Assembly: GCA_028688325.1 (NCBI GenBank)
Contig: JAQTYI010000003.1
Coordinates: 1 to 32,115, forward strand
Origin: Candidatus Portnoyibacteriota bacterium
GTDB lineage: Bacteria > Patescibacteriota > Minisyncoccia > Portnoybacterales > GWB1-42-6
DNA: 32,115 nt
Direction: 5' to 3'
Made by a program: the position numbers and the translations under genes. The notes beneath the pieces were generated by a model. That model searched no databases, was not told the DNA's origin, and saw only the letters and a program-made list of their open reading frames with translations. Positions 7,080 through 31,542 of this stretch are shown one piece after another (position 1 is the stretch's first letter; each line of letters opens with the position of its first letter).

Positions 7080-8180
7080 ATGAAAGAGAAAAGGCAGCCG
7101 GACTACATATTGATGTTTGTTATCGGAATTTTGGTCATTTTCGGTTTGATCATGGTTTCTTCCGCCAGCATCGGGCTTTCGCAGGAACGATTCGGCGAAA
7201 GTTATTACTACCTGAAAAGCCAGCTTCTCAAAGGCCTCCTGCCCGGCCTCTTTTTAGGGCTCATCGCGTATTTTTTGCCCTATCGCTATTTTAAACCCTT
7301 GGCGTTGCCGGTGCTTGTTGCGACAATTATCGGACTGATTTTGGTATTTGTTCCGGGCATTGGCTCGGGTCACGGCGGCGCCAACCGGTGGATATCCGTC
7401 GGACCGATAATGCTGCAGCCGTCTGAATTTTTAAAATTAAGTTTTATTTTATATTTGGCCGCTTGGATGTCCAGCAAGGGCAAGGTAGTTAAAGATTTTT
7501 CGCAAGGGCTGGTGCCGTTTTTATTAATGGTCGGGTTGGTGGCCTTCTTGATTTTAAAAGAACCGGATATCGGCACGCTCGGCGTTATCGGTTTCAGTTC
7601 GTTGATAATTTTCTTTTTGGCTGGCGCCCGGATATCACATATCGGACTGATTGGGCTGGGCACGGCAGCGCTGTTTTATCTCCTGACAAAATTTTATTCC
7701 CATGCGGCCAATCGTTTGCAGGTTTTCTTGCATCCGGAGCTCGACCCAAAAGGCATCGGCTACCAGATAAACCAAGCGATTCTGGCCCTGGGTTCCGGCG
7801 GAATGTTCGGCGCGGGCTTGGGCCAAGGCGTACAAAAATTCAAATATCTGCCTGAACCGGCTTCCGATTCCATTGTGGCGGTGGTCGGCGAAGAATTGGG
7901 GTTTATCGGCATTTTGGCACTTTTGATATTGTTCATAATTTTTACTTTCCGAGGCCTTAAAATCGCCCAGGGCGCGCCAGATGATTTTGGGCGCCTCCTG
8001 GCTGGAGGACTGACCGGCTGGATAGTGGTTCAAGCAATGATAAATATGGCGGCTATTTGCGGATTGATTCCTTTAACCGGCATCACCTTACCCTTCATCT
8101 CGCTCGGCGGCTCGTCGCTGGCCATAACGCTGACGGCGATGGGGATGCTGCTGAATATATCTAAATACAGTAAAATATAA
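7080..8180 (+). CDS. ftsW: Cell-division lipid II polymerase FtsW (SEDS family, 366 aa)
   Basis: A polytopic SEDS protein with about ten membrane segments. Conserved elements include GGANRWI near 100, LKEPDIGT in the large loop, the extracellular region with HPELDPKGIGYQINQ and ALGSGGMFGAGLGQGVQKFKYLPEP, EELGF, and the C-terminal PLTGITLPFISLGGSSL. SEDS proteins polymerise lipid II glycan chains with a partner penicillin-binding protein. FtsW rather than RodA is chosen because it sits between murD and murG, as in dcw clusters. The ATG follows the upstream stop by 10 bp; no SD. Confidence 0.95.
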   Translation: MKEKRQPDYILMFVIGILVIFGLIMVSSASIGLSQERFGESYYYLKSQLLKGLLPGLFLGLIAYFLPYRYFKPLALPVLVATIIGLILVFVPGIGSGHGGANRWISVGPIMLQPSEFLKLSFILYLAAWMSSKGKVVKDFSQGLVPFLLMVGLVAFLILKEPDIGTLGVIGFSSLIIFFLAGARISHIGLIGLGTAALFYLLTKFYSHAANRLQVFLHPELDPKGIGYQINQAILALGSGGMFGAGLGQGVQKFKYLPEPASDSIVAVVGEELGFIGILALLILFIIFTFRGLKIAQGAPDDFGRLLAGGLTGWIVVQAMINMAAICGLIPLTGITLPFISLGGSSLAITLTAMGMLLNISKYSKI

Positions 8181-21185: not shown

Positions 21186-21200
21186 CTGAGGCCTTAAGCC

Positions 21201-21238
21201 GAAGAATCATAGATCCTTCACTTCGTTCAGGATGACAA
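21201..21238. repeat. Partial dispersed repeat before rpmA
   Basis: GAAGAATC, GATCCTTC and TTCAGGATGACAAC match the right arm of the dispersed family. It ends 10 bp before the rpmA ATG. Confidence 0.6.
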
Positions 21239-21248
21239 CCATAAAGTT

Positions 21249-21584: not shown

Positions 21585-21777
21585 GACCGCGCATACGAAA
21601 AACTTTAAGACAAAATCGAGATGAGCGAGGCGTTTAAAATCGCGTGCTGTGGCGGGCCCCAAGCTGACGCTTGGGGCGTTGCGGATAGCGCTTTTAGGCG
21701 AGCGAATCAGATTTTGTTAAAGTTTTATCGCCGTGCGGGACTTTTTTTGTTACTTTTTTGTGGATACAAAAAAGTAA
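21585..21777. repeat. Structured multi-helix repeat, copy 1
   Basis: Nested helices: AACTTTAA + CAAAATC (21601-21617, 2-nt bulge) with GATTTTG + TTAAAGTT (21710-21724); CGTTTAAAA (21631-21639) with TTTTAGGCG (21692-21700, two G-U); GCCCCAAGC with GCTTGGGGC (21656-21677, 4-nt loop); and a separate 3' hairpin TTACTTTTTTG/CAAAAAAGTAA (21750-21777). Conserved single-strand blocks GCGTGCTGTGG and GTTGCGGATAGC flank the central hairpin. Copy 2 is at 31342-31542. No frame of note. It lies between the convergent rpmA and pyrG. Confidence 0.8.
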
Positions 21778-21787
21778 AGTGATTAAC

Positions 21788-21852
21788 TCTGGATCCCGGG
21801 TCCCGTCTATGCTAAAGCTTCGGCGAGGCGCGGCAAACCCGGGATGACAACT
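21788..21852. repeat. Dispersed repeat variant next to pyrG
   Basis: GGATCCCGGGT and ACCCGGGATGACAAC are related inverted arms, with GCTAAAGCTTCGGCGAGGCG between them. It ends the 333-bp gap between rpmA and pyrG. Confidence 0.55.
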
Positions 21853-31341: not shown

Positions 31342-31542
31342 GCGCCCTCGCCCATAGCGCGAAAATAGCTAGAAAATCGAGTTGAGCTGAAGGATAAAAA
31401 TTGCGTGCTGTGGTGGGGCCCCGATCGTCAGGTCGGGGCGTTGCGGATAGCAATTTTTATCGTGAAACAAAACCGATTTTCTCTATTTTCGACGCTCGGG
31501 CGCAGGTCTTTTGGTTACTTTTCTAACTGCCAGAAAAGTAAC
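31342..31542. repeat. Structured multi-helix repeat, copy 2
   Basis: Helices parallel to copy 1: GCGCCC (31342-31347) with GGGCGC (31498-31503); CGAAAATAG + AGAAAATCG (2-nt bulge, 31360-31379) with its complement at 31474-31491; GATAAAAATTGC (31393-31404) with GCAATTTTTATC (31450-31461); GCCCCGATC/GGTCGGGGC (31418-31439) with a 4-nt loop; 3' hairpin GTTACTTTTCT/AGAAAAGTAAC (31514-31542). Shared single-strand blocks GCGTGCTGTGG and GTTGCGGATAGC, and AAAATCGAG(A/T)TGAGC before them. It lies between two minus-strand glycosyltransferase genes. Confidence 0.8.

Follow-up and report, generated by a model that had tools for sequence, protein, structure and literature searches.

What is the structured element that occurs twice in the stretch of DNA analysed here (hereafter the window, 32,115 nucleotides), and does it work as an RNA or move as DNA? 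A preliminary description, made from the sequence alone, had placed two folded copies at 21585-21777 and 31342-31542, proposed a new RNA or a mobile element, and suggested a covariance search and a comparison with Rfam. Both copies were located at these places, on the plus strand. Copy 1 comprises a core (21588-21737) and a 3' hairpin (21750-21777), and copy 2 a core (31349-31502) and a 3' hairpin (31514-31542); folding energies relative to dinucleotide shuffles correspond to z = -6.2 and -8.7, respectively.

A family of intergenic elements

The two copies have a common architecture, a long interrupted hairpin followed by the 3' hairpin. The core of copy 1, composed of an outer stem, a second stem, an inner stem and a tip, is supported by covariation in the family and scores 148.2 bits (E 5.4e-32) with R1, a covariance model of the 151-position core that was built from six copies; the core of copy 2 scores 169.2 bits (E 5.5e-37). 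Stem bases differ between the copies with pairing kept. The single-strand blocks reported earlier as nearly unchanged are in fact identical: GCGTGCTGTGG (21642-21652 in copy 1 and 31403-31413 in copy 2), which is invariant across the six copies of alignment A4, and GTTGCGGATAGC (21678-21689 and 31440-31451), recognized by comparison of the copies. Sequence and fold define a tip hairpin, GCCCCAAGC-TGAC-GCTTGGGGC in copy 1 (21656-21677) and GCCCCGATC-GTCA-GGTCGGGGC in copy 2 (31418-31439). The 9-bp GC helix is as first described, except that one of the nine pairs in copy 2 is T-G. The 3' hairpins, taken from the sequence and the listing of core-to-hairpin segments, are TTACTTTTTTGT-GGAT-ACAAAAAAGTAA and GTTACTTTTCT-AACTGCC-AGAAAAGTAAC.

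Copy 1 is flanked by rpmA and pyrG, whose 3' ends converge on it, as expected for a position beyond gene ends. The same had been said of copy 2, which lies between two minus-strand glycosyltransferase genes, past the stop of one and also just ahead of the start of the other. An intrinsic terminator was rejected for the 3' hairpin, as no T run follows it on either strand. A REP-like stretch (GAAGAATCATAGATCCTTCACTTCGTTCAGGATGACA) is present upstream of rpmA (window 21193-21240), and REP-like hairpins of type TGGATCCCGGGTCAAGCCCGGGATGACA often stand directly after the element (L101:5540-5600, L111:1549-1640 and window 21788-21850); a hairpin of this type also forms the interior of a variant copy, L109:910-1064.

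The element belongs to a family of about 190 bases scattered between the genes of one Patescibacteria lineage. The exact core pattern was found in five copies in the source genome (G000) and in one copy in a relative, and the R1 search returned 23 copies in the source genome after removal of opposite-strand matches, in place of the two first supposed. All nine sampled genomes of the family, several of which are incomplete MAGs, have R1 matches, with copy numbers from 1 to about 30 per genome. At the level of the order one further genome, G014, gave a weak single match, and a class-wide search of 384 genomes, run with stricter filters, was positive only for the nine family members and the distant G259 (three copies). 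The exact core pattern matched 62 stretches in 84,980 species genomes; only one of these is real, L038, which corresponds to contig G007:C20 and alone carries a record name ('Patescibacteria group bacterium isolate MM_PC_MetaG.mb.188'). No viral contig contained the core pattern, and the matches of copy 1 to phage records were chance only. Neither window copy matches Rfam at the gathering score, and copy 2 has no match at E-values up to 10. A model for these intergenic repeats would be a gain for genome annotation.

The core and its predicted 3' pseudoknot

Across 108 copies, 97.2% of stem cells hold standard pairs and 42 of the 46 stem pairs show double-sided change, values that were reached by none of 500 shuffles; kinship of the copies inflates these covariation counts, and the margin is very large all the same. 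No version of the alignment with slid columns came near the observed covariation. The compensatory change suspected from two copies is therefore confirmed on the larger set, and the proposed covariance search and Rfam comparison yielded many matches, covarying pairs and no Rfam match. The pairs are predominantly Watson-Crick, with G.T (or G-U) at about 2%. Mismatches of the outer helix are divided almost equally between G.T and A.C (17:16 genome-pair combinations). On the plus strand G.T exceeds A.C in the inner helices (16:2 in the inner stem and 10:3 in the tip), an excess that favours the plus strand as the one that folds in this part. Template-switch correction of palindromes could account for some of the covariation of the outer stem without any selection.

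The 3' hairpin had been taken for a separate part, and is joined to the core by a predicted pseudoknot and a pyrimidine third strand. The order from core to hairpin is fixed in the sequence listing: a head of 3-4 bases, a pyrimidine run of 5-8 bases, and the hairpin, as in GCAG-TCTTTTG-GTTACTTTTCTG-CTGC-CAGAAAAGTAAC. In most copies the head can pair with the loop of the hairpin, which defines a putative H-type pseudoknot (head/loop pairs GCGG/CCGC, CAGG/CCTG, GGGC/GCCC, GGCC/GGCC, GTGG/CCAC, TAA/TTA and GAAC/GTT). Pairing of at least 3 bp is seen in 30 of 41 distinct combinations, against a shuffle mean of 12.2 and a maximum of 22 in 5000. Read in parallel register, the pyrimidine run corresponds to the purines of the 3' arm, so that the two form a mirror repeat instead of an inverted one (TCTTTTG/AGAAAAG, TTTTTTCC/AAAAAAG, TTTTTCTG/AAAAGAGAA, TTCTTTG/AAGAAAG and TTTTTCC/AAAAAG); over 45 combinations the match averages 5.80, compared with a shuffled mean of 4.95 and a maximum of 5.38 of 5000. 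The length of the run and the position of its C covary with the purine arm. Head-loop helix and parallel third strand thus both covary, as expected of an H-type pseudoknot with a major-groove triple helix. The path of the third strand, from the loop beside the head to the base of the stem, makes the topology coherent, and because a mirror match is not producible by duplication or by palindrome correction, it offers the best indication that a three-stranded fold is under selection.

In window copy 2 the head is CAGG, of which CAG pairs with CTG in the loop, and the third strand TCTTTT (head and run at 31503-31512) is parallel to AGAAAA in the 3' arm. Some copies break the head-loop rule, among them window copy 1, where the head GGAC, followed by the run TTTTTTT (21738-21748), mismatches the loop GGAT. 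The triplex match is kept in both G014 and G259, and the head-loop match in G014. When a stricter descriptor was run blind on 1.4 Mb of family stretches, some of which overlap, it recovered 38 modules, compared with none in shuffled DNA; on 467 kb of 62 other contigs it found one, in a family member. Overall, the patterns of sequence change give good support to a dispersed structured element with a covarying pseudoknot and a putative triple helix.

Pseudoknots with U•A-U triplexes are known in RNAs. Telomerase RNA, the SAM-II riboswitch and the omegaRNA of TnpB likewise form H-type pseudoknots in which pyrimidines of a loop occupy the major groove of stem 2, whereas the present fold ends a dispersed repeat and has no link to telomerase, a ligand or TnpB. 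No description of this structure was found in the open literature, subscription papers being outside the search. Tertiary structure in an uncharacterised element is seldom backed by covariation of three strands, as it is here.

Orientation, sites and exchangeable interiors

In 103 of the 108 copies the plus strand of the element is the C-rich one, with the element itself excluded from the GC skew; this skew comes from short stretches, and gene strand contributes to it. Flanking genes run either way, and copies amid genes of the opposite direction still follow the replichore. The clearest case is contig C3 of G000, in which orientation and skew flip together; the analysis covers this contig apart from some 64 kb (about 240000-304000) given as N. 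For the majority of copies, both neighbouring genes are encoded opposite to the plus strand. An orientation that follows the replichore is hard to explain by a function at the level of the transcript, and fits incorporation of a folded single strand at replication forks, or selection. As the orientation is fixed in genomes of about 0.9 Mb, spreading at forks is directly testable.

Several comparisons bear on mobility. The copies at L108:5118 and L110:6365 are identical over core and hairpin and have different flanks. L101 has two copies at a distance of 944 bp whose cores are identical and whose 3' hairpins differ, and at several places in the source genome wholly different interiors are enclosed by the same termini. 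Within a syntenic block, relatives at four loci have no element, other palindromic repeats or a different copy. At one syntenic site three species have the element, possibly as an ancestral insertion; most of the compared sites are not common to different species. Swapped interiors and an orientation locked to the replichore are more in keeping with a mobile DNA element than with an RNA whose role is purely regulatory.

Further source-genome copies combine the same or partial termini with at least two additional types of foreign interior, and are found at L108:1325-1483, L230:2047-2205, L240:2843-3001, L223:9302, L233:6797 and L229:4780-4936. They escape the covariance model, and those that were read keep the replichore orientation. 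Stand-alone 3' hairpins were considered as a target site and discarded: two of the apparent solo hairpins in G000 and G005 are unrelated palindromes, and all others are either the same hairpins seen on the opposite strand or parts of copies whose interior is foreign or disrupted. In G001:C106 (L182:6960-7265 and 7680-8060) another palindromic repeat with no relation to the element, CGCCGAGAAAAATGTGTCGCAGACGCCTCC ... GGAGGCGGCGAGACACAAGCCGCGGCTGG, stands at sites where G000 or G007 have the present element.

The flanks show only A/T richness and C or T at position -1. No target-site duplication was detected over 90 copies (left and right flanks agree at 0.46, and shuffles at 0.51), and a clean empty site from a close strain was not found. 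Terminal inverted repeats are present, in the form of the outer stem CGCGCATACGAAAAA / TTTTATCGTCGCGCG with a further hairpin outside it; a MITE of a DDE transposon, which such repeats might indicate, was nevertheless rejected on the absence of target duplication. An integron attC site was rejected on layout, the copies being scattered without cassette arrays. The alternatives first offered, a new RNA or a mobile element, were well chosen, and dispersal, identical copies in different flanks and species-specific sites support the second, albeit with neither target duplication nor an adjacent transposase.

The 3' module in Proteobacteria and the competing explanations

The 3' module is not confined to Patescibacteria. 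A search with the hairpin pattern returned five contigs of viral databases whose heads are, by eye, complementary to their loops, and seven exact copies of the module came from a Kangiella MAG (G740), one of 49 additional genomes and records that were searched. There the head GTGGTC pairs with the loop GACCAC over 6 bp, a sterically tight pseudoknot with 2 loop bases left, and TTCTTTTG stands against AAGAAAAG. The interior of the Kangiella element is TwoAYGGAY (RF01731; 47.7 and 47.1 bits, gathering score 43), a candidate RNA motif without an assigned function (Weinberg et al. 2010, PMC2864571). Scores above the gathering threshold were also obtained for elements with the shared 3' module in Nevskia (G758) and Pseudomonas shirazensis (G770), with 25, 10 and 4 TwoAYGGAY matches in the Kangiella, Pseudomonas and Nevskia genomes, respectively. 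A descriptor places the module at 18 of 30 TwoAYGGAY loci; in the cases read it is on the strand of the motif and downstream, about 120-170 bases from the start of the match. Additional variants at these loci include heads and loops TGTC/GACA and GGCGCGC/GCGCGCC and the pyrimidine/purine pair TTCCTTT/AAGGAAAG. In P. shirazensis some TwoAYGGAY copies form inverted pairs, spaced by about 300 bases.

Plasmids of Variovorax, Comamonas and Iodobacter carry the module (TCGCC/GGCGA, CGCA/TGCG), and in Burkholderia cenocepacia the run matches and the head pairs poorly. The module is therefore present in Kangiella, Nevskia, Pseudomonas and Betaproteobacteria, with TwoAYGGAY upstream in the three gammaproteobacterial genomes, and a lower stem GTTAC/GTAAC common to the modules suggests common descent. 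The Patescibacteria interiors differ from TwoAYGGAY in that the RF01731 model finds no match at gathering score in G000, G005 or the window, and the pseudoknot-triplex end lies outside the region matched by Rfam. The earlier statement that no named family was recognised is correct for the copies in Patescibacteria; their 3' module also occurs in elements with TwoAYGGAY inside. It is possible, at slightly less than even confidence, that both groups represent an unrecognised class of mobile structured elements that is defined by the covarying 3' triple-helix pseudoknot, has TwoAYGGAY as one of its interiors and spreads as a folded single strand. The module links a reduced-genome Patescibacteria lineage to Proteobacteria, and suggests that an orphan Rfam motif is part of a larger repeated element.

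The element is likely to be mobile, and its best reading, to which we give about an even chance, is a non-autonomous mobile element that acts as a folded single strand. An interspersed unit of about 190 bases would fold on its plus strand into the long interrupted hairpin and then the H-type pseudoknot, with the head, 3-4 bases past the long hairpin, pairing with the loop of the short 3' hairpin. The pyrimidine run would lie as a third strand in the major groove of that hairpin, parallel to the purine arm (T•A-T and C+•G-C triples). The constant outer stem and the pseudoknot-triplex are the probable recognition parts for a mobility machinery, and the interior would be exchangeable cargo. Copies would be inserted, or retained, so that the plus strand coincides with the C-rich (lagging, nascent) strand, a placement that suggests incorporation of the folded single strand at replication forks, in intergenic gaps. 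Counting against this reading are the lack of orientation bias in the seven Kangiella copies, the tight fit of the Kangiella pseudoknot, and the failure to find a flanking transposase, a target duplication or a clean empty site.

The preference for movement as single-stranded DNA over RNA is weak. The excess of G.T over A.C in the inner stem and tip and the link to TwoAYGGAY in Proteobacteria, where the module is downstream on the RNA strand of the motif, leave room for an RNA form, and triplex pseudoknots of this type have RNA precedents. Even so, we regard a structured non-coding RNA family, with a transcribed plus strand that works like TwoAYGGAY and spreads by recombination or an RNA intermediate, as rather unlikely: the orientation tracks the replichore, the plus strand is mostly antisense to both neighbours, interiors are fully replaceable, G-U pairs are scarce, and no promoter-like site was found on the plus strand upstream of either window copy. 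A host function is quite improbable. A site for replication or chromosome organisation, such as a polar fork-pausing or segregation signal with its orientation under selection, would explain the near-uniform orientation and the occurrence of the element in all nine family genomes, and mirror-repeat pyrimidine/purine runs can form H-DNA, which stalls forks. This explanation is at odds with the wide range of copy number within the family, with sites that mostly differ between species, with freely varying interiors, and with the seven Kangiella copies, which have no orientation bias.

Hairpin ends, lagging/leading bias, intergenic sites and a lack of target duplication are typical of elements moved by Y1/RAYT proteins (PMC6006769), and the present element has these traits. 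RAYT-like Y1 proteins are encoded in five of the nine family genomes, with two in G000. That the element is REP-like or derived from IS200/IS605, and moved by an HUH (Y1/RAYT) transposase on single-stranded DNA hairpins, is nonetheless unlikely in our estimation. No Y1/RAYT protein was found in G005 and G007, the carriers with the most copies, the two genes of G000 have no flanking copy of the element, and the plus strand is not the favoured lagging template, unless activity resides in the minus strand; RAYT was accordingly rejected as the machinery, the flanking palindrome being a different one. That palindrome, TGATGTCTGACATCA, lies in and beside one of the two genes (L218:2920-3640, G000:C1) and is probably the REP of the gene itself. 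REP, REPIN and BIME repeats with RAYT (TnpA-REP) are similarly multicopy, mosaic intergenic hairpins that lack target duplication, whereas the present element is much longer, has conserved internal loops and a pseudoknot with a third strand, is replichore-locked and has no flanking RAYT. BOX, RUP, ERIC and Correia elements, small repeats whose origin is either unknown or in TIR-MITEs (PMC2229807, PMC3049150), are also intergenic, modular, foldable and non-autonomous units of 100-200 bases; the present element is set apart by its lack of target duplication, its pseudoknot-triplex end and its orientation bias.

Among the nine family genomes, neither a transposase flanked by the element nor a candidate enzyme common to all carriers was found. 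TnpB with its omegaRNA was rejected, as no TnpB scored above the cut-off in these genomes. Reverse transcriptases, which occur in five of the nine, were likewise set aside as the machinery, being DGR- or retron-like by motif and having no tie to the element. The source genome (0.9 Mb) has four such genes, at C8:18415 (L242), C3:385517 (L247), C8:252915 and C3:336954; two have an IRYADDF or YADDF motif and resemble diversity-generating retroelements, and one appears retron-like.
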